Below, one piece after another: positions 3,409 through 17,804 of a stretch of DNA of 20,066 nt. The notes under the pieces were generated by a model. It searched no databases. It had not been told where the DNA came from and saw nothing but the letters and a program-made list of their open reading frames with translations. Source of the DNA: a virus; the IMG/VR virus record IMGVR_UViG_3300037264_002883, positions 1-20,066 of that record. One strand, 5' to 3'. The position numbers and the translations under genes were made by a program. Positions within the stretch are counted from its first letter, which is position 1. Every line of letters begins with the position of its first letter.

Positions 3409-6400
3409 TTAGTATTTCTGAATTGGATTATGAACCACAATTCCTTCTGCTACATACAAGTGCAGTCCATCCACTACGAAGTTAAAGGTTGGTGTTTCAT
3501 TTTCTACAATAACGACAGTATCCAATCTTTCGGTCGTTCCGTCGTATTTGAGCATCATATCCCCAATTTTCAAATGTTCAGTGTTGACGAGTCTATAATT
3601 GCCATTTTCAACGATTAGAACTGGATGTTCATAGGTGATCTTCAATTTTCCATTCAAAACATAGTGTTCATGGAAACGGTTTGGTTTCAGTTCCATAACT
3701 GTCACAAGTGTTCCATTCATACTCTTCAAAACATCTCCAACGACGATATGTTCTACGTTTCTGGTTGAACCATTCGACATCATGATTTGAGTTCCAGCCA
3801 ACAAACAACCACCGGCGCCAGCTCCCGATGATGGGGCTGGTGCGGTTGCCACTCCCGGAATAGTCGGAGTTGGTGAAATACCGGAACCACCACCCGTGGA
3901 AGTAGAAGATACTGTACCCGCTCCACCACCCAAACCAACAGGAATTACTGAGCCTGCTTTGTTGGATGGAATGTATTGAATGACATTACTTGAATTTTTG
4001 ACGTTGACGTTACTAACATTAAACGATTCTACAGGGAACGTGCCGTCGCTGATACCACCCGTGTTAATTGTAGTATCAATGGTTTGACGGCTCTTTACAT
4101 AAATGATGTTGTAAAGCTGGTTAATATATCGAGCATATTTATTTTTGGAAAATTGTGTAGCTTTATGTGTAAAGTGGTTTCTTGGAAAACCACGAATCAA
4201 TTCAAAATACTGAGTTGCTGGCGTATTAACAATAGTAAAAGAGGTTGGGAAAACAAGCGGTGGATATCCCGGAATGAATGACGCCACAGTATTGCTAAAA
4301 ATCTGATTTGGAGTATTCTTAAACGTATTGGCGTGATGTTTGTAATAGGTATCCGAGCCAATAATTGTTATTACTTGAGATGGATTATTTGGAATAACCG
4401 AAGTCGTAATTTCATTGTAGAAATGCACGTATTGATTCATGAATCGTTCATCGACCACAATGTATTTGTAAAGATATGTGGATGCCGTATCATATGAATC
4501 GGCACCGGGATTGTTCGACCTGACATACTCTCCTGACTTGGCGTTGTATTCAAATTTATCCCACGTTTTCATCAAATAATAAAGAATTTGATGCTTGGAA
4601 CCTGAGGCATTGCCGGTTTCATCGAGTCCATTTGGAATATGATGTTCTGAAATGTTTGTCAAATCATTCTGTTTTTGACGGCTCACTGAACCATAAATCC
4701 AATTTTCACAATTAACATCCGGCTCCCAACCTCTCGCTAAACGTTCGTAATCTCCATACATTCCATGTTGAATGTCATCCATGTAATCAGTGACATAACC
4801 ACAGAATAGGTTGCTCGGTCTGATTTTTATGGGTTCATTGATATACGTCAAATCAATGGTGTTAGTATAACTTGGAGGCAAACTGGAAGTCATGATTGCC
4901 TGAGATTGTGAAGTCATACCACGCCAGTCGTCATTGAAATTAGCCCACAAAACAGTTTCGGTAAGCGTGTAAATATCATCAATAATAGTAGGATTCAAAA
5001 ACGTAATTTCGGCGCTTGAAGTCATCGGCCGGTTTTGATATTTTGGTCGTTCCAGAATCGTTGGTTCGATGACCACACCCGTAAAACTGTTGGCTCTGGC
5101 TGGTAGGACGTTCTTAATGACTTGGAAAATAGATTTGTCAAAGTAGAACTTAAAAATAGTCAACATTTCATTGAAGTATGTTTGTTTGTTTCCAGACGAA
5201 TTATATTCAACGTTCTTGTTTCTCAAATCATTGTAACGACTACTATAAAGATTGGCCGGATCGCCAATCAAATCCATAATGCCGGTTTTACCGACATAAC
5301 GAATAATGTCTTTGTTTTTGGAATCTTGTGGGTCAATAAAAAACCCAAGTTGGTTTGACTCTCCCGAAATGGTTTCTAGTTGACTCGTAGAACGGTCATC
5401 GGAATCAAATCGAGCCTCAACCGTATAATCCACCTTACGAATTTTCTTATTCTTGTATTTGTTTGGTCCATACTTTGACGCATCAATATCTTGTTGATAC
5501 GTCAATTCTTCATAATGATATGGATAAATTGATGCTGAATTCCATGCACACGTCGCAGTATTAAATGATGCTGACCAGCTTTGACCAATCGCCACCGGGA
5601 AATTACGAGCAATGATTTCTACCGAACCCGTTGGGTGTTGAGACAACCAACGACCATCGATGATGGACACCGAAGAACTCCATAAAGTCGAATCAATCGA
5701 ACTACTCAAATTAAGTGAGTCGTTATAATAGTTTGGAATGGCATAGTAAGATGAACCATTATCCACCCACACCGATGAAGAACCACTTATGTTGTAATAC
5801 AAAGATTTTGGATAATCAAGAGACAATCGCACCCACAAATTCTTATAGGCCGTTGAACCACTATAACCATATGAGTTTAAGTCATTTACATGTTCTTCAA
5901 AATCAAGATCGTTGATAGGAATATCCCAAATTGAAAGTTTGTCTAATGTGCCTTGAAATATTCCATCGCTCAAACGGAATGTTCCGAATTGACTAAATAC
6001 GGTGTTATCTAACGATTGCAAATATACACTAGCCGATGAACAGAATAATTGGCGTCCATTTTCATTTCTTTGAACTATCAACTCGTATTGTGTCGGATAA
6101 TCATTAACACTTACACTTGAAGTCGCTTCAAATTCTTCGCTAACTTCATAACGCCTCAACATGACACTGAAAATGTCTCCGTTAAAAATAGGCAACGTGT
6201 TACTTACAATCGTTGCACCCGTTGACCCCGACCCCATTTGGAAAACCACTTCTCCCAAATGTTGGCCCGCCATTTTATGAATACCCACCGACCACGCGGC
6301 ATTATTTACACTGGTGTATGGATATGGAATGACCGTAAATAGGTTAATGTGTTGATAGTCAGTATAAGTTACACTATTATCAACCGAAAATTTGAATTCT

Positions 6401-8703
6401 ACTGTCTGTGTTGAAGATGGATATGGTCCTTCGATATAATCATTCACGCCGGAGAATGTTGCCATGTATATCTTTTCATCTAACTTGTATGTTGGTTCGG
6501 AATCCTCAGAGTAATCTGTTCCACCATATTCACGAATACTAATTAAAGAAGATGGCAATCCATAACAAGCCATCAAATAACGAACACACTCTTCTGTTCC
6601 TTTAGTCTTGTAAATGCCCGGCAATGTAACAAGGATTCGGTTCCAAATTGTTTGTAGTCTTTGTTCGCCGGACATCACGTTGTATGAACCAGCATTCAAA
6701 CTGTTAAGATATACATCATTCAAATCCAGATTTCCGATGATGTCATCAACGTTCCAACCAAACGAATATAACATTTCCTTCAGCGTATTAGTTGGAATGC
6801 TAGAACTTAACTCGTTTTGAATCTGCCGCTCAATTGGAAGAGCAGAAATGTAAGTGTAAATGTTGTCAAAATGATGACCTACCATTGACAAGAAGGTTAG
6901 GTACTCTTCGTTATTGGTGTCATTTAGAATGTATTCTGGAGTGTTAGATACTAAATAATCTCGATTGCTTTGGTCATACAACGAAGCCGAAACATCTTGG
7001 GCAGTTACATAACTGGCACTCGTAAACGCATTGGTAGCCAAGGAATAAGCATAGTTTCCACTGTTAAACAGATAGGATTCATAAGCATCAAACGAATTTA
7101 TCAAATCCGTTATTTGCGTATTGATAGCTTCACTTTCCTGTGAGTAATACGAATAGGTGGTCGAAGCAGAAATTGCAGTATTATAACGGTCGGTCAAGGA
7201 TGATAACGACGCACTCAACCCGGTCCACGTTTTTATCTTATTTTTGAAGATGTTCAAACGTGTAACGGCGGAAGAGAATACTACGAAATTTGAGAAATCC
7301 GAGAAGTCAGTATTCAGTGTGGCTATGGATTTATTGATGAAACTGCTATTGGTGACATCATCACTAAGAGCCAAATCATCAGAAGAATATAGTTTGTTGA
7401 CATTATCTTTGGAAACGAAGGCAGTAGTAGAACCAAAATTAGCGGCTGAAATCTGTATGGTCTTGTATTTGGCTGGATTTCTTAATATGGTCGTTACAAT
7501 GAACGGCGCCATACCAAAGTTGGATACCCAACACAAACTTTTCTGTGTTATATCCACTGGTAAATCGGTGGAAAGTTTGACCACCAACGTCAATGGATCG
7601 GTTGGAGATTGCCTCTCATCAATGAAATCGTGAGTAAGAATCTGGAAATATTTATTGTTTCCAAAATTCAATACATTCTTTAAATATCCGAAATACTTCT
7701 GTTGATGACTGCGTTGTAATGGATGGACCACGTTTTCATAATAGTAAGTGAAGAAAAAGTCATACACGAACTTCTTGGCGCCAACATAATCAACGCCTTT
7801 TTGTGTGAGATATTGTATAAACTGTTGATTTATACGAAGAATAACAAACTCACCAAACTTCTGTTCCAGAGAGTCAAAATCCGAAATCGCATCATAATTT
7901 TGAAGCAAATAGTTACTAAAGTATGTACGAATACCCTGTGTTCTTGAAATCCGAGTCGGCTCATTTCCTTCCGTAATTTGGTCTTCGGTAAGAAGTGTGT
8001 ATTTGATTAAATCTTCATACAGATTTCTCAGGAAAGTCAACACCGAACCATCATCTTTCAGGAAAAACATCGTTTTCAAAAATTCGATGTCTGCTTGGTA
8101 TGATGGATACATGGTACGATAAATCGAATCGTATGGGCATTTCTGTGTCACCGATAGTAATACGGGAGCAACATCTCGATTAGGAAACTTCTTCAAACAG
8201 AAGGATGCGTAGGAAACATCTGAATTTCCTTGTGGTACCAGTTTGATTTCAGTTCTGGACGGAGAAATTTCTTTGATGGAAAGTGGTTGCTTCGGATTGC
8301 CCGCCAAGTTTCGGATGAAGTTGTATGATACCTTGAAACTTCCATCGGTGACGCCAATAGCGTTTAGGTCTGAAATTGGGTCAATAAGAATCTTGTCATT
8401 CTTGTATTGAATAAACCCACGTATCAATTCTCGGTAGGTGTAATCATGTGGAACGTTACGAGCGTCCAAATACGTTGAAGTTACCGTCTTGTATTGTTTT
8501 TCCTGATTGACTATACCCCATTTTACTAACGTATCATCATCAACGTTGTATGTTGAAATTTCAATCGCGTCATTTGGAGAAAACCCAAACCAAGCATCTG
8601 CACTCTGCGACACGTAGAATAAACTATTATCCTGCTCGCTCAGGATTGACCCTGAGTTAATGCTTCCTGTAAAATTACCTATTACTGGATATGGCAATGA
8701 CAT
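3409..8703 (-). CDS. Giant baseplate/tail protein with tail-protein-I-like and LamG-like segments and a C-terminal Hint domain (1764 aa)
   Basis: This is the largest protein here. Residues 1-680 are a mixed region without a clear family, including Ser/Tyr/Asn-rich helices around 480-580. Residues about 685-730 contain WNRILVTLPGIYKTKGTEEC and ISIREYGG, resembling the P2 tail protein I-like segment found in large phage baseplate proteins. Residues about 745-935 look like a LamG/concanavalin-type sandwich (YMATFSGVNDYIEGP ... GTLDKLSIWDIPI). Around 1196-1230 comes VLPARANSFTGVVIEPTILE, a motif common in myovirus structural proteins. Residues 1590-1632 are a Gly/Ser/Pro/Ala linker, and 1633-1759 form a Hint domain described separately. 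The start lies 2 bases after the preceding stop, with no clear Shine-Dalgarno sequence. By position after gp6 it could take the place of T4 gp7, but that is inference. Confidence 0.85.
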   Translation of the reverse strand: MSLPYPVIGNFTGSINSGSILSEQDNSLFYVSQSADAWFGFSPNDAIEISTYNVDDDTLVKWGIVNQEKQYKTVTSTYLDARNVPHDYTYRELIRGFIQYKNDKILIDPISDLNAIGVTDGSFKVSYNFIRNLAGNPKQPLSIKEISPSRTEIKLVPQGNSDVSYASFCLKKFPNRDVAPVLLSVTQKCPYDSIYRTMYPSYQADIEFLKTMFFLKDDGSVLTFLRNLYEDLIKYTLLTEDQITEGNEPTRISRTQGIRTYFSNYLLQNYDAISDFDSLEQKFGEFVILRINQQFIQYLTQKGVDYVGAKKFVYDFFFTYYYENVVHPLQRSHQQKYFGYLKNVLNFGNNKYFQILTHDFIDERQSPTDPLTLVVKLSTDLPVDITQKSLCWVSNFGMAPFIVTTILRNPAKYKTIQISAANFGSTTAFVSKDNVNKLYSSDDLALSDDVTNSSFINKSIATLNTDFSDFSNFVVFSSAVTRLNIFKNKIKTWTGLSASLSSLTDRYNTAISASTTYSYYSQESEAINTQITDLINSFDAYESYLFNSGNYAYSLATNAFTSASYVTAQDVSASLYDQSNRDYLVSNTPEYILNDTNNEEYLTFLSMVGHHFDNIYTYISALPIERQIQNELSSSIPTNTLKEMLYSFGWNVDDIIGNLDLNDVYLNSLNAGSYNVMSGEQRLQTIWNRILVTLPGIYKTKGTEECVRYLMACYGLPSSLISIREYGGTDYSEDSEPTYKLDEKIYMATFSGVNDYIEGPYPSSTQTVEFKFSVDNSVTYTDYQHINLFTVIPYPYTSVNNAAWSVGIHKMAGQHLGEVVFQMGSGSTGATIVSNTLPIFNGDIFSVMLRRYEVSEEFEATSSVSVNDYPTQYELIVQRNENGRQLFCSSASVYLQSLDNTVFSQFGTFRLSDGIFQGTLDKLSIWDIPINDLDFEEHVNDLNSYGYSGSTAYKNLWVRLSLDYPKSLYYNISGSSSVWVDNGSSYYAIPNYYNDSLNLSSSIDSTLWSSSVSIIDGRWLSQHPTGSVEIIARNFPVAIGQSWSASFNTATCAWNSASIYPYHYEELTYQQDIDASKYGPNKYKNKKIRKVDYTVEARFDSDDRSTSQLETISGESNQLGFFIDPQDSKNKDIIRYVGKTGIMDLIGDPANLYSSRYNDLRNKNVEYNSSGNKQTYFNEMLTIFKFYFDKSIFQVIKNVLPARANSFTGVVIEPTILERPKYQNRPMTSSAEITFLNPTIIDDIYTLTETVLWANFNDDWRGMTSQSQAIMTSSLPPSYTNTIDLTYINEPIKIRPSNLFCGYVTDYMDDIQHGMYGDYERLARGWEPDVNCENWIYGSVSRQKQNDLTNISEHHIPNGLDETGNASGSKHQILYYLMKTWDKFEYNAKSGEYVRSNNPGADSYDTASTYLYKYIVVDERFMNQYVHFYNEITTSVIPNNPSQVITIIGSDTYYKHHANTFKNTPNQIFSNTVASFIPGYPPLVFPTSFTIVNTPATQYFELIRGFPRNHFTHKATQFSKNKYARYINQLYNIIYVKSRQTIDTTINTGGISDGTFPVESFNVSNVNVKNSSNVIQYIPSNKAGSVIPVGLGGGAGTVSSTSTGGGSGISPTPTIPGVATAPAPSSGAGAGGCLLAGTQIMMSNGSTRNVEHIVVGDVLKSMNGTLVTVMELKPNRFHEHYVLNGKLKITYEHPVLIVENGNYRLVNTEHLKIGDMMLKYDGTTERLDTVVIVENETPTFNFVVDGLHLYVAEGIVVHNPIQKY
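3427..3807 (-). other. Hint (intein-like) autoprocessing domain at the C-terminus of the giant protein
   Basis: Residues 1633-1759 carry the intein blocks in order. Block A begins at Cys1633 (CLLAGTQIMMSNGS) and includes a conserved VGDVL. Block B is ITYEHPVLI, with the T-x-x-H pair at Thr1690 and His1693. Blocks F/G are FNFVVDGLHLYVAEG followed by VVHN, with His1758-Asn1759. The domain is about 127 residues, with no endonuclease insert. Only five residues (PIQKY) follow Asn1759, and the +1 residue is Pro rather than Cys, Ser or Thr. Known chemistry therefore allows N-S acyl shift and cleavage at Gly1632-Cys1633, but not ordinary splicing. This looks like a bacterial-intein-like or Hedgehog-type Hint domain rather than a functional intein. 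Confidence 0.88.
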
Positions 8704-9187: not shown

Positions 9188-11227
9188 TTATCTCACTATC
9201 TTAAAGATGTTACCCTTGTCAAAGGTAACAACCGAACCACTTTGTTCTGTTTTAATCAAAATCTTGAAATACCTTTCTTGTGGTAAGCCGGTAGTGTCAA
9301 GTAGGAAGTAATTTCCATTAACATCACAGCTCATTCGCGTATAATTATCAAAATTAACAACAATTTGGTCGGTTTCGTTATCTTTTATTGCGTAGTAAGA
9401 GGCGGAAGGCAAATATTGCGGGGTGAGATACTGCGTAAACTGAGTGCGTCTCTGGAAGTTTTTGAATGGAAATTCTGGACGGGCAAAAACATTGATTCTC
9501 ACGATGTTGCCGGCCTGAACGGTTGGAAGTAAATTTTGAATGACTGTGACAAACGGATGATTAAATTCCACGGGTTCAAGACTCGAAGAAACAATCATAA
9601 CGCTGCTAGTCCACAAATAACTGCTGGTAAGGAATGTACCACTAATTTGGGCATTAAGTGACGCACCATTAAACAATCCCTCGGTGAATATTCCGTTAAA
9701 GCTAGCACTACCCACCGAAGCAGAAATGTTAAACGTTCCAAAGGTAGTTCCGTTAACATATGGCCCCGAAACCGTAGCGTAAATGTTTGGATAAATAGCA
9801 AATGGAAAACTAGCGTTGAGGTTACTGCCGACGATACTTTGAGAATTCCACGATCCTGTCAAATAACCCGCTCCCAATTGATAACCACTAAGACTAGAAG
9901 TAAATGTGCTACCACTAAAAATTCCGGTGGACAAAGTTCCAATTAAAAAGGAACTCGTTACCAAATTAACAGAATGACTGATAGAACCCGTGAAATTTCC
10001 AAAAACCACTGCGTTAAGAATCGTTCCAGAAGTTCCGGTTACGCTAATAACACCACTTGCTGAATAAGTTGTACTACTTGAGTAATTTGTAATGCCGGTG
10101 AAATTTCCTGCCACAGAAGCATTCGTAATGGTAGCATTTGTAATGATGCCACGATATCCCGGTTCTATTGTAGAAAGGGTAACACTTCCGGTTTGAACAC
10201 TGCCCGTTACCCAAACAGCATCATTCCAACCTGCATCCAAACGTGGTTGATAAATCGTATTGGTGTCACGACTAAAAAAATACAGCGACATGGCGGAACC
10301 CGTGTCTTGAGTTTCGTCACTCGACAAAAGAATTAAACCTTCATTCGGAATGCTACCACTCAACCAAGCATGAACGACATTGGTAACATTCATGTTAATA
10401 TCACCAACTTCGTAATCGAATGACTGACTAGCAATCGAACTTGTGTACCATGTTCCACCACCCCTTGCCCAAACCAACGGAGTCAACGCCGGATTGGTGA
10501 TAAAATCTATTGGAGTCAAACCATTTGGATCGGTAATTGTTTTCCATACACTACCAGAATAGAAGTCACGATAGTTCCAGCTAGTTCCCTTGGTTGAACC
10601 ACCATCGGAAAGATAACCATTGCCCATTACCCAACTCTGACTGATTGGAAAAGCGTAAATAGAATAAGAAATAGGAAGATTTTCTTCCCTTGCCACATTC
10701 ATGCGAAGCACAAAATCCGGCATAGAAATATCACCCAAAGCAACAGAAGCGGATATCGCATTCAAATTAAACTTCACCAAAGCACGGTTAACATACTTCT
10801 TGGTGGTTTCGGTTTGATTTGATTGGGATACACTATAATGACCAGTAATGGTACCCGTAATCGCACCTGCAAAACCCGTAATGGTGCCGTTGAAATTACC
10901 TATACTACCTGAAAAATTGATGCCCGCCAACACAGACGAGCCGGAGAACGCCGAGCCGCTAACACTACCTGTGCCTGAAGCAATTGTTCCTGATATGTAA
11001 GAGGCAAAACCTCGCAACGAACTTGATATAACAGTTCCGGTAAATGCTTCAATACACAAAGTCACACTCGCACTGGCATATGAGAATGTTTTGGTGTCCA
11101 AGGTAAATCGAGCCGTTGTATTTGCCGTGCCCACACGCAACACTTCATCCAAGCCGAAATTGACATCAGCATAGTTTATCGTATTGGTTACGAAAGTATC
11201 TTGAGCTGGATAAATGAAATGGTGCAT
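9188..11227 (-). CDS. DNRLRE-like baseplate/fibre protein with Gly/Ser/Thr-rich insertions (679 aa)
   Basis: The start ATG at 11227 (MHHFIYPAQDTFVTNT) is chosen because it follows the gp6 stop by one base; a longer version would need a TTG start inside gp6. Residues 1-50 and 145-340 together resemble a DNRLRE-type beta-sandwich: PAQDTFVTNTINYADVNFG, DEVLRVG, then RALVKFNL, ISYSIYAFPISQSW and VHAWLSGSIPNEGLILLSSD. Between the two parts, residues about 57-132 are a low-complexity Gly/Ser/Thr region (SGSIGNFNGTITGFAGAITG). Residues about 341-540 are a second region of the same kind with recurring G-N-F-T/N-G elements. The C-terminal 135 residues are again ordinary (VEFNHPFVTVIQNLLPTVQA and following). 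An exposed virion protein is likely. The DNRLRE assignment is by eye; the insertions look like beta-solenoid repeats. Confidence 0.8.
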   Translation of the reverse strand: MHHFIYPAQDTFVTNTINYADVNFGLDEVLRVGTANTTARFTLDTKTFSYASASVTLCIEAFTGTVISSSLRGFASYISGTIASGTGSVSGSAFSGSSVLAGINFSGSIGNFNGTITGFAGAITGTITGHYSVSQSNQTETTKKYVNRALVKFNLNAISASVALGDISMPDFVLRMNVAREENLPISYSIYAFPISQSWVMGNGYLSDGGSTKGTSWNYRDFYSGSVWKTITDPNGLTPIDFITNPALTPLVWARGGGTWYTSSIASQSFDYEVGDINMNVTNVVHAWLSGSIPNEGLILLSSDETQDTGSAMSLYFFSRDTNTIYQPRLDAGWNDAVWVTGSVQTGSVTLSTIEPGYRGIITNATITNASVAGNFTGITNYSSSTTYSASGVISVTGTSGTILNAVVFGNFTGSISHSVNLVTSSFLIGTLSTGIFSGSTFTSSLSGYQLGAGYLTGSWNSQSIVGSNLNASFPFAIYPNIYATVSGPYVNGTTFGTFNISASVGSASFNGIFTEGLFNGASLNAQISGTFLTSSYLWTSSVMIVSSSLEPVEFNHPFVTVIQNLLPTVQAGNIVRINVFARPEFPFKNFQRRTQFTQYLTPQYLPSASYYAIKDNETDQIVVNFDNYTRMSCDVNGNYFLLDTTGLPQERYFKILIKTEQSGSVVTFDKGNIFKIVR

Positions 11228-11228
11228 G

Positions 11229-13217
11229 TTAAATAGTTGTTCCCTTGATATCATTATCAGGATATTTGACTTCAAAAATAGATGGGTCTAACGATGGATA
11301 AACCATATCATTTTGAGTCGCTGCATCAATATCGTATTCCACCACCGAATAGTTGTCGCCATTCGTTGTTAGTGGCGTGAGGTTCTTAATCTTCAACGAA
11401 ACAACGCTTTGGACACCTTCCACCTTGGCAATTTCCAAACGGAGATTGCTGAGATTGATGGATTGTGAGAATTCCCACTTATCAATGTCAAAGAATTCCT
11501 TGACTGTATCAATAGCGTTCTGTAACACTTCCTTCTTGTTGTAACCACGGAAAACGGTGATGACAAATTCCACGCCAATGTTAATAACATAACCATCGAC
11601 CACGTTAACACCATCCGTCAACATACGATACTTCCTAAGATGTGTCATAAGATTGGTCACTAAAGCCTCGTTAGGAACAGTAAGATTTTTGTTTTCATCA
11701 TACGACAAAACATACAAGTTGACGGCAAACGGATTACTGCGGTCATAAGCAATTTTTCGGAAGTAATTCTGAGTATTGTTGTTTATCACCGTAGCAACGT
11801 TTTCTGGATCCACCGTTCCAACCAAAATTTGATTCTGATTGACATCCAAACTATTGTAAGTAATGATTTGAACCTTGCCAATTGAACCATACTTTGGTGG
11901 CATAGAATACACTCGGGTCAAATAATCTGATTGGGTGACAACACGTTGTTGAGCCGCAAACGCCGCGATAGCATTTTGGCGAATGTCTTCGTTGGATTCC
12001 GGTCCTGCTCCGCCAACAGTCGGGTCTTCATTGTTGACTCTCAACGAAGTCTTGACTGTGTTTAACAACGTGGCTTCTTCGGGCGGCATACCATCCGCAG
12101 TATTATCAATGTTAGAAGAATAGACGTTGACTACAGAATTTGCTGATGAATTGGAATCAAATCCACCACCAATCGTATAAGTTACCGTTAGTGTGGTATT
12201 GGTTGGAGAAAGACCATAGGTATCATTCTTCAAAAAATTAGATGGGTCGAGTGACAGATTTAGGTTGTTCATGTTTGACAACCCAACCCCAATTTGTTGT
12301 GAACTCAAATTGATAATTTCATCGGCAAAGCCATTTGTGCCTGAACCAAACTCCAAATATGTTTTGCTATTTTCGTCAACCGTTACCGTAAATCTACGCG
12401 ATGTTTTTAGATACTTCAAAATGTAAGGAACGGTACCTTTGTATTGGGCTAAAATTCCTTCAAACACATCGCTATTTGGAACATCATACAAAACGGTTTC
12501 TTGAGCTAAAAATTCAACTTCATACCATTTGTTGTTGTCGGAATCTCGAACATCAATAATTTCCAGAACGTTATCTTCATCCAAATACAGTTTCAAAAAC
12601 GTTTGGATTTCGTTGATGGTAAAACTTTTCGTAACCAATTTACCAGAACGAATGTTAACCGTTTTTTGAAGTAGAAAAAAGGTTGGGACACCCGTAGAGT
12701 CTCGTTGATAAACCGTGACGGTTCTCGGAGAGAGGTCTGTATCAACTCCAAAATTGATGGGTTCAGATGTAAGAAACGCCGCACCGGAATTGTTGGAAAC
12801 CTGCATGTTCTCTCTGATGCTTAGAGAGAATTTTTCATCGGGTACATACTCACCATCATCATCAACCGTTGCTGGACAAATTTGGAAAACATCTATTTTG
12901 CCTGTGGCTCCACGCGTTGGCTTCGGTCGATAACCCAAATATCTTGAAAGAGCAATAATGTTTTTTCGTTCTTGAGTGTTATACAGTAAACCTTCTTTGA
13001 AGATATAATCGGTGTAGTAAGAAAGGACATCGCCAACGTAGGATGCCATTTCAATGAACATCATGCCCGGAGAAGCATCGTTGAAGTCCTTGTAGGTATT
13101 TGGGAAGTAATACTTTGCGAAATTGATTAGACCTTCACGAAACTGAGAGAAGTCCCGATTGACATAACGGACTTCTTTGCTCTTCGGTTGAAATGATTTG
13201 TTAGTTGTAGTAGCCAT
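11229..13217 (-). CDS. 6: Baseplate wedge protein gp6-like (baseplate J family)
   Basis: In T4, gp6 forms the ring that joins the baseplate wedges around the hub. The N-terminus reads EVRYVNRDFSQFREGLINFA, then YFPNTYKDF at about 37-45 and SPGMMFIEMASYVGDV at 49-64, close to gp6 homologues of marine T4-like phages. Around residue 402 is GGAGPESNEDIRQNA and at 425-432 RVVTQSDY, the baseplate J-type core shared with P2 gpJ. The length of 662 residues matches T4 gp6 (about 660). The ATG follows the gp25 stop by one base, so translation is probably coupled; no clear Shine-Dalgarno sequence is seen. The gene order gp25-gp6 is that of T4. This is one of the two surest calls in the window. Confidence 0.94.
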   Translation of the reverse strand: MATTTNKSFQPKSKEVRYVNRDFSQFREGLINFAKYYFPNTYKDFNDASPGMMFIEMASYVGDVLSYYTDYIFKEGLLYNTQERKNIIALSRYLGYRPKPTRGATGKIDVFQICPATVDDDGEYVPDEKFSLSIRENMQVSNNSGAAFLTSEPINFGVDTDLSPRTVTVYQRDSTGVPTFFLLQKTVNIRSGKLVTKSFTINEIQTFLKLYLDEDNVLEIIDVRDSDNNKWYEVEFLAQETVLYDVPNSDVFEGILAQYKGTVPYILKYLKTSRRFTVTVDENSKTYLEFGSGTNGFADEIINLSSQQIGVGLSNMNNLNLSLDPSNFLKNDTYGLSPTNTTLTVTYTIGGGFDSNSSANSVVNVYSSNIDNTADGMPPEEATLLNTVKTSLRVNNEDPTVGGAGPESNEDIRQNAIAAFAAQQRVVTQSDYLTRVYSMPPKYGSIGKVQIITYNSLDVNQNQILVGTVDPENVATVINNNTQNYFRKIAYDRSNPFAVNLYVLSYDENKNLTVPNEALVTNLMTHLRKYRMLTDGVNVVDGYVINIGVEFVITVFRGYNKKEVLQNAIDTVKEFFDIDKWEFSQSINLSNLRLEIAKVEGVQSVVSLKIKNLTPLTTNGDNYSVVEYDIDAATQNDMVYPSLDPSIFEVKYPDNDIKGTTI

Positions 13218-13218
13218 A

Positions 13219-13644
13219 TTATGCCGTCACGTTGTCAATCGTAATTGTTACTGTGTCCTGTTGCTTTGTCATATTCAACATGAATATCACAGCGACTTGT
13301 AATCTATAAATATCACGGTCGGCGCTTGTTTGGTCACTTTTGTATAGATTTGCTGTAACATCAACGACGGTGATGTTGGGAATCCACATGGAGATGTCTT
13401 CTTTGACAACATTTGCCGCAATATCAGGCAAAGTATCCACATTTTGTTCAAACAACAGATTCCAAAGACGAGAACCGAACGTTGGTTGCATTCTACGTTC
13501 TCCCGGTCGGGTATTCAACAGATTGATGATGTTTGACTTGGTTTGGGTCAAAGTATCGTAGGACTGCTCAAAGTACCCGCTATTACTATCACGGAGCGGT
13601 AGAGTAATACCTATGGGGGTCTGTATTGGTTGTGACGTTGCCAT
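13219..13644 (-). CDS. 25: Baseplate wedge protein gp25-like (GPW/gp25 family)
   Basis: This 141-residue protein matches the small GPW/gp25 family, a conserved sheath-initiating component of contractile-tail baseplates (T4 gp25, P2 gpW). The family signature is at about residues 45-66: TRPGERRMQPTFGSRLWNLL, containing the RPGER stretch and the F-G-x-x-L-W pattern. It is preceded by SYDTLTQTKSNIINLL, the helix before this motif. The C-terminal half (WIPNITVVDVTANL, IYRLQVAVIFML) gives the expected beta strands. T4 gp25 is 132 residues. The start ATG lies 3 bases after the upstream stop within TAATTTATGGC. In older literature the family is called lysozyme-like, but its established role is structural. 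gp6 follows at once, as in T4. Confidence 0.94.
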   Translation of the reverse strand: MATSQPIQTPIGITLPLRDSNSGYFEQSYDTLTQTKSNIINLLNTRPGERRMQPTFGSRLWNLLFEQNVDTLPDIAANVVKEDISMWIPNITVVDVTANLYKSDQTSADRDIYRLQVAVIFMLNMTKQQDTVTITIDNVTA

Positions 13645-16982: not shown

Positions 16983-17804
16983 TTATGTGGATATAAGAAT
17001 GCCCAAATCCAAATTGGTTAAAGCATCATATAGACGACTGTTCTTTTCATCATAACGAATGAACCGTAACGGTTGTGTTTTTTCTACAATACATCGTTGT
17101 TTGTATTCATCTTTTTCTTTTCTCTTTTTGTAATGATGGTATGACTCATCATATTCAAACACAACATTTTTTTCTTTGTCGTATCCATCAACAGGAAAAC
17201 CAGATAATAACACTTCTCCACCATTTAAGGCATGTTGAAAAGTGTATCCGTTTTTATTTCCGAAATCGTCGATAAACTTACAGGCATTAGGATTGAAAGC
17301 AACCATTATTCCTTGTTCTTTCAATCGCTTTAGAGCAGCTACTCTCATTCTTTCTCTGTGTTTTTCCGACGGAATTTTACCATACATAGGATTATTTTTA
17401 CCTATTTTTTGTTTCGACAATTTTTGTTTGGTTTGTTTAGATAATTTTACTCCAACATGAGAACTAGACATTTTTTGTTTAGTAGATGTGGAATGTGTTT
17501 TACCATACCAAAAAGCTTTATTTCCCATTTGAAAACAACTTTTACATAAAGAATTTTTATGGTGTCTTACAAGGCATATTTGTCTGTTTTTGTATGATAA
17601 TTCATTTTTACATTTAGGACATTGACGACACCATTTTCTGTTAATGTTCTTATAGATTCCGGTAAACGTTTTCAATTTGCTACACTTTATACATTTAGAA
17701 TTTTTACTCTCTTGTAAATCAGCACTTCTTTTGTATTTATATTCTAACTCTGCATCGCATTTAGAACATTTTCTAACCCACGATTTTCCATTATATTTAA
17801 TCAT
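16983..17804 (-). CDS. Free-standing homing endonuclease: zinc ribbons, NUMOD3 repeats and a Vsr-like PD-(D/E)XK domain (273 aa)
   Basis: Homing endonucleases of this kind cut an allele lacking them and are copied in by repair. Residues 13-16 and 38-41 give two CxxC pairs (CSKC, CIKC), and 62-65 with 87-90 another set (CPKC, CKSC), consistent with two zinc ribbons. Residues about 100-155 are NUMOD3-like DNA-binding repeats (YGKTHSTSTKQKMSSSHVG, then LSKQTKQKLSKQKIGKNNP, MYGK). Residues about 185-260 carry FPVDGYDKEKNVVFEYDES, then YHHYKKRKEKDEY and LRFIRYDE, matching the VDGYD...EYDE catalytic core of Vsr-like endonucleases. The start overlaps the sigma-factor stop as ATGA. The gene looks more AT- and Lys-rich than its neighbours, a common sign of a mobile insertion. 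It could in principle have lost activity, but the core residues look intact. Confidence 0.9.
   Translation of the reverse strand: MIKYNGKSWVRKCSKCDAELEYKYKRSADLQESKNSKCIKCSKLKTFTGIYKNINRKWCRQCPKCKNELSYKNRQICLVRHHKNSLCKSCFQMGNKAFWYGKTHSTSTKQKMSSSHVGVKLSKQTKQKLSKQKIGKNNPMYGKIPSEKHRERMRVAALKRLKEQGIMVAFNPNACKFIDDFGNKNGYTFQHALNGGEVLLSGFPVDGYDKEKNVVFEYDESYHHYKKRKEKDEYKQRCIVEKTQPLRFIRYDEKNSRLYDALTNLDLGILIST
17734..17741 (-). promoter_or_regulatory. Exact TATAAATA, possible gp55-type late promoter inside the endonuclease gene
   Basis: The minus strand reads TATAAATA, the T4 late-promoter consensus recognised by gp55-containing polymerase. It is 60-70 bases inside the homing endonuclease coding region and about 780 bases upstream of the next gene. 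Late promoters need no -35 box. An 8-base AT-only word can easily arise by chance in an AT-rich Lys codon run (EYKYK here), so this is weak. Confidence 0.25.

Follow-up and report, generated by a model that had tools for sequence, protein, structure and literature searches.

Genes of the window

The window analysed here is a 20,066-base fragment of a virus. On its minus strand, an open reading frame (3409..8703), supported by orthologs and distant homologs, encodes a baseplate-associated protein of 1764 amino acids with a Hint domain at its C-terminus. Upstream on the same strand are a gp6-like baseplate wedge gene (11229..13217; phrog_219, baseplate wedge subunit, E 6.2e-17) and a gp25-like baseplate wedge gene (13219..13644; Pfam GPW_gp25, E 1e-13; phrog_261), and it is because of these two genes that we consider the term baseplate-associated sound. 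A preliminary description of this DNA had spoken of a giant baseplate protein. Gene order upholds that wording, and so does a homolog in a Flavobacterium phage, whose gene lies 3' of genes annotated as baseplate genes, whereas no baseplate family matched the 1764-amino acid protein itself. Profile searches of its central region (about residues 542-791) found nothing, and a model of that region was too poor for use (pLDDT 47.5).

Elsewhere in the window, a 361-amino acid ORF (355-1440) ends in near-identical repeats (SLITVILTTSSFDSGSSALSFYTG), with a diverged version in the closest relative, L002, which lies on a 279-kb contig. A 695-amino acid protein (9188-11275), rich in Gly/Ser/Thr repeats and fibre-like, gave weak matches to DNRLRE and CBM96. 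Free-standing genes resembling NUMOD-type homing endonucleases are found among the tail genes (16983-17804; L002:6796-7521; L030:692-1408), at different sites in the window and in its relatives.

Layout of the C-terminus

Alignment of the orthologs revealed a conserved anchor (residues 1537-1576; 3976..4095, minus strand) that ends in NVIQ and is common to the window, L002, L006 and L026-L028; beyond it these proteins diverge. In the window the anchor is followed by a Gly/Ser/Pro-rich linker (residues 1577-1632; 3808..3975, minus), whose Gly-Gly end adjoins Cys1633, and then by the Hint domain, which profiles and predicted fold place from Cys1633 to Asn1759 (3427..3807, minus). Together with the five residues that follow, the domain makes up the last 132 residues of the protein.

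Within the domain, all on the minus strand, block A supplies Cys1633 (3805..3807), the expected thioester former, block B the TxxH motif Thr1690-Tyr-Glu-His1693 (3625..3636), and block G His1758-Asn1759 (3427..3432; the Asn1759 codon is 3429-3427). Cys1633, the Thr and His of block B and the His-Asn pair are invariant in alignment A4, which consists of ten phage relatives 25-80% identical to the window Hint. The block F residue, Asn1741 (3481..3483), was located from the sequence and by alignment to the bacterial intein-like (BIL) domain 2lwy, which also has Asn there; counted by eye, it corresponds to Asp422 of Mtu RecA. After Asn1759 comes the tail Pro-Ile-Gln-Lys-Tyr (PIQKY, residues 1760-1764; 3412..3426) and the stop codon, so that the +1 residue is Pro1760 (Val in L002). 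The tail includes Lys1763 (3415..3417), a candidate acyl acceptor in view of the conservation of a tail lysine in phage C-terminal Hints; L002, with the tail VIQKN, has lysine at the same position. The preliminary description had placed the domain exactly to the base, and its reading of Cys1633, Thr1690/His1693, His1758-Asn1759, Pro1760 and PIQKY agrees with the sequence.

Domain class

Several methods that agree with one another make the Hint assignment more than a chance match. TIGR01443 (intein_Cterm) scored above its curated cut-off of 15.6 both with the isolated C-terminus (18.1 bits) and with the full protein (16.0), Pfam PT-HINT (PF07591) matched at its cut-off (27.7 bits, E 3.7e-6) and also matches eight of ten phage relatives, and Hom_end_hint fell slightly under its cut-off. 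When A4 was used as a profile, the solved BIL domain 2lwy came first (E 1.3e-13) and Tetrahymena BIL2 second (E 2.3e-10), with inteins behind both. An AlphaFold2 model of the Hint was confident (pLDDT 88.5, pTM 0.82), and Foldseek searches with it returned 2lwy at rank 1 (E 1.3e-9, TM 0.78), four BIL2 chains at ranks 2-5, canonical inteins next, and Hedgehog 1at0 at rank 37. The profile and fold searches proposed in the preliminary description thus both bore out its call. The Hint is real and, judged from sequence, probably active as a processing domain; profile and modelled fold both put it closest to BIL domains, and the two sets of ranks set it apart, as a BIL-type Hint, from canonical inteins and Hog domains.

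The traits of an A-type BIL are present: Cys1, TxxH and His-Asn, closest sequence and fold among BILs, no obligatory Cys/Ser/Thr at +1, and a site in a variable region of a non-conserved protein, here the C-termini that differ past NVIQ. Lys1763 further provides a downstream lysine that could serve as acceptor, as in a BIL2-type domain. Four other classes were considered and rejected. A canonical (class 1) intein does not fit Pro at +1 and a C-extein of five residues, as the preliminary description had recognised. The B-type BIL lacks the C-terminal His-Asn found here; a Hedgehog Hog domain is not compatible with only five residues after the Hint and no sterol-recognition region; and a pretoxin release domain (the PT-HINT of polymorphic toxins) would precede a toxin domain, where the window has only PIQKY. 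The preliminary description was also right that the +1 nucleophile is missing, but this is no unique oddity, since in A-type BILs it is not obligatory and cleavage predominates (PMC7664689, PMC7765530, PMC9185962).

Conservation and selection

Comparison with L002, 83% identical over the whole protein, indicates that the Hint is under purifying selection with its catalytic residues retained (dN 0.13, dS 0.99, dN/dS 0.13; whole protein, dN/dS 0.07). A degenerate relic is unlikely given this ratio and the invariant catalytic residues. The anchor shows no amino-acid changes and 8 synonymous ones, and residues 1537-1611, which add the first part of the linker, none and 19; the first 35 linker residues are thus invariant, and the 21 that precede Cys1633 are fast-evolving. 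Over residues 1537-1611 (3865-4095) dS against L002 is 0.4-0.5, compared with 1.4 overall, so recent exchange or extra constraint is possible there.

The Hint as a module among orthologs

Identity to the window protein is 55-56% in L026-L028, 51% in L006 and 39% in L030 (N-terminal part), and distant homologs occur in phages Mel-JY01 and immuto. Judged by their sequences, these orthologous baseplate proteins carry the Hint as a module that is C-terminal, placed inside a loop with a split ORF, or absent. Past NVIQ, the window and L002 have linker, Hint and a short tail. In place of the Hint, L027 and L028 end in an unrelated module some 65 residues long (L027:9052-9411), and the L027 module gave only a weak DUF3945 match; L026 has a Ser/Thr-rich end instead, and the L006 protein stops at NVIQQ. 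The homologous protein of the isolates immuto and Mel-JY01 lacks a Hint, and a search for a second Hint in the 279-kb relative found none. The L002 end, NVIQKN, resembles the upstream NVIQY over four residues, and insertion with target-site duplication was considered.

In L030 a Hint of the same subfamily (47% identical) follows the equivalent of window residue 1317, the ORF that bears it ends 18 residues past His-Asn, and the remainder (window residues 1375-1575) forms a separate ORF that starts 5 nt past the stop in a different frame. This arrangement (L030:1879-7115) may be a real split, or one gene broken by a frameshift or sequencing error. L141 has yet another, distantly related version of this gene, the third lineage, which ends with linker, Hint and VEDAGNEKQLT; its protein is 45% identical to gp109 of Flavobacterium phage immuto and homologous to that of the window (E 5e-25).

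The same Hint lineage on other tail proteins

Sequence comparison places Hints of this lineage at the C-terminus of several unrelated tail proteins from phages, in most cases past a Gly/Pro-rich linker that itself ends in Gly. Collagen-like virion proteins of Alexandravirus, Rivsvirus, Sasquatchvirus and Yoloswagvirus end in Gly-Cys-Hint-His-Asn followed by TDIVAKAEKK or a near variant, phage NCTB has three neighbouring genes of this type annotated 'intein domain', and L034 and other contigs encode collagen-like or BACON-like proteins with a C-terminal Hint of the same kind. A tree of 80 domains placed all 13 phage rows together, apart from the cellular BIL-like Hints (99/96 support), and 100% of its bootstrap trees needed a single change for the phage/cellular split. 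With 140 columns it is a short tree, and its sampling began from phage sequences. Hint matches in helicase, RecA-like and terminase genes of Vibrio, Salmonella and Corynebacterium phages were set aside as resembling ordinary inteins.

Two further proteins were noted. Phage NCTB encodes, next to two Hint-ending tail proteins, a 153-amino acid Hint-like protein (L053:723-1184) that is nearly stand-alone, ends HN-KVD and has no TxxH. A tail-region protein of Achromobacter phage 2-1 (L016:3077-4519) has a different Hint-like end after CNCDCNCSC, with no terminal His-Asn.

A search of open-licence papers turned up none that deals with C-terminal Hints in phage tail proteins or with lysine as the acceptor in a phage Hint. 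Should the lysine turn out to be silent, the proteins above would still reveal a mobile self-processing module on several unrelated phage tail proteins, poorly annotated as 'intein domain' or 'hypothetical'.

A lysine in the tail

The preliminary description had treated PIQKY as an empty remnant; what is conserved in this tail is its lysine. All 42 phage C-terminal Hints that are distinct at 90% have a lysine in the 2-22 residues past His-Asn, and so do all 53 distinct ones found with a model that stops at His-Asn, in which the tail cannot affect detection. After clustering at 45% identity, lysine was present in 16 of 16 clusters, against 7.0 expected from C-termini of matched length taken from the other ORFs of those contigs (log10 P -6.3 if the clusters are independent), and 14 of the 16 had exactly one; arginine was not enriched (3 against 5.6 expected). 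Yet lysine is no rarity at C-termini, with 36% of control ORFs having it among their last 5 residues. In the Alexandra-type family the lysine at +9 is kept in all 23 members, while that at +6 is Gln in 7. The residue before the Hint is Gly in 29 of the 42, and +1 varies among relatives (P/V/I/L/A/K/T/F).

Among all distinct domains, lysine falls within +1..+8 in 123 of the 136 without Cys/Ser/Thr at +1, compared with 9 of the 22 with Cys or Ser there (Fisher 6e-7; background 0.32). The P values for lysine assume independence and kinship makes them optimistic, with the direction clear. In the sequence record, then, lysine stands in for the missing nucleophile, being present where Cys/Ser/Thr at +1 is absent. 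Its distance from the Asn ranges from +1 to +17; such a spread suits an acceptor that is flexible, but not a fixed catalytic site. In a separate scan of cellular relatives (L058-L137), +1 was itself lysine in 76 of 108 distinct domains, and a few of these relatives, with no lysine, end in HN-Tyr or HN-Glu-Glu-Arg. Many exported cellular BIL-like Hint proteins were seen to end HN-K, HN-KQ or HN-Y. The tail lysine could have another role, for instance in Asn cyclisation or solubility.

Proposed chemistry and its alternatives

We tentatively propose, as a reading that may well prove wrong, that the Hint processes itself through a thioester at Gly1632-Cys1633 which is resolved by Lys1763, in cis or on a neighbouring subunit, to give an isopeptide. 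Cys1633 would attack the carbonyl of Gly1632, assisted by Thr1690 and His1693, to form the thioester, the intermediate already expected in the preliminary description and supported here by analogy. With no Cys/Ser/Thr at +1, the thioester would be passed to Lys1763 of the same chain or of a neighbouring copy, and an isopeptide bond would then hold the Gly-rich linker to the side chain of that lysine, in the manner of Tetrahymena BIL2; water would compete as acceptor. Cyclisation of Asn1759 would then release the Hint, and C-side cleavage would free only five residues. BIL2 is reported to link the ubiquitin-like domain upstream of it to a lysine through an isopeptide, with no need for ATP (PMC8616854). 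By analogy with such systems we infer all of this chemistry, and a virion protein that is joined or cross-linked rather than merely trimmed.

The preliminary description had left the thioester to water or to a nucleophile on another molecule; water stays as the main rival, while an acceptor elsewhere appears less likely than the tail lysine in cis or on a neighbour. Hydrolysis accounts for everything except the lysine. In that case the thioester would be hydrolysed, Asn1759 would cyclise, and the Hint and pentapeptide would be trimmed off; the Hint would be a detachable C-terminal part that might, for instance, assist assembly or folding, and the lysine would have no chemical role. Such BIL-type cleavage needs no partner, every catalytic residue required to cut on the N- and the C-side is retained, and BILs have been reported mainly as cleaved products (PMC7664689). 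We nevertheless hold it to be somewhat unlikely, as it leaves unexplained both a lysine in every phage tail and the replacement of the +1 nucleophile by lysine.

Transfer in the manner of Hedgehog, with the thioester resolved by a sugar, a lipid, a host surface amine or another virion protein, is improbable. A C-terminal Hint does recall the Hedgehog architecture, with the fold match to 1at0, and BIL2 can conjugate substrates in trans (PMC8616854). The His-Asn is kept, however, the sterol-recognition region is absent, the Hedgehog match is weaker than those to BILs, and the carriers showed no partner gene shared by all of them. The conjugation to a sugar, a lipid or an unrelated protein raised in the preliminary description gained no specific support, and lysine is the likelier acceptor because it is conserved in the tail and present where Cys/Ser/Thr at +1 is absent.

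A similarly low probability is given to a purely structural use, in which the Hint fold is a C-terminal binding or capping domain without chemistry. A recognisable TxxH is missing in 4 of 53 phage members, and orthologs have other C-terminal modules at the same place, so the position tolerates domain exchange; yet Cys1, Thr/His and His-Asn remain invariant while the rest of the domain diverges to 25% identity. Less probable again is a degenerate selfish intein, one that no longer splices, has lost its endonuclease and now decays at the gene's end. It would account for the absence of the Hint from L006, L026-L028, Mel-JY01 and immuto, its different site in L030 and the homing-endonuclease genes nearby, but not for the low dN/dS, for a location at chain ends past low-complexity linkers rather than in conserved active sites, or for membership of a phage tail-Hint group apart from the cellular BILs. 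Ordinary splicing through Pro1760 is highly improbable with Pro at +1, a C-extein of five residues and a variable +1 among relatives, even though the titles of Dassa 2004 and Aranko 2013 refer to BIL splicing without a C-flanking nucleophile, and the former is said, by its title, to cover auto-cleavage without one as well.

For transfer to Lys1763, the wider form of the proposal is more doubtful than the form for this protein alone: BIL-like Hints of phage tails and baseplates would be a widespread family that splices to a conserved tail lysine and covalently joins virion tail proteins by isopeptide bonds, with neither a separate enzyme nor ATP, and cellular BIL proteins, as a large class, would obey this lysine rule too, in most cases at +1. 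Were the tail lysine the acceptor, BIL-type Hints would be natural lysine-directed ligases with which phages weld tail parts, and a compact tool for ATP-free isopeptide ligation. The tail lysine makes the question of what replaces the missing +1 nucleophile in BILs directly testable. Some phage capsids have covalent cross-links that are comparable in kind, with a different chemistry.

Comparison with known systems

The A-type BIL 2lwy of Clostridium thermocellum, the best profile and fold match, shares with the window Cys1, TxxH, His-Asn, the block F Asn and the lack of a +1 nucleophile, and A-type BILs too are embedded in non-conserved regions. The window Hint differs in that it terminates a phage baseplate-associated protein, with Pro at +1 and a five-residue tail with one lysine. 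The PT-HINT model of polymorphic toxins matches most relatives, but the window has no toxin or other domain past the Hint. Hedgehog Hog (1at0) likewise has a Hint fold at the C-terminus and an expected N-side thioester, whereas the window keeps His-Asn, lacks a sterol-recognition region and matches that fold less well.

The jumbo phages Alexandra, Y3, Yoloswag, pEa_SNUABM and NCTB have Hints of the same tree group in the same post-linker position, with tails that, as in the window, contain lysine (TDIVAKAEKK, AVMVAKK, APVDQKH). Theirs differ in their carriers, which are fibre proteins of collagen-like type and one large repeat protein, and the +1 residue is Thr in the Alexandra type and Ala in the NCTB counterpart. 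Tetrahymena BIL2 (BUBL1 locus; PDB 6y75, 6tmm), the second-best profile and fold match, resembles the window in an upstream partner that ends in Gly and in the lack of ordinary splicing, and its reported acceptor is a lysine (PMC8616854); unlike BIL2, the window has no ubiquitin-like domains, the two are 18% identical over the model, and the phage isopeptide is a proposal made by analogy.
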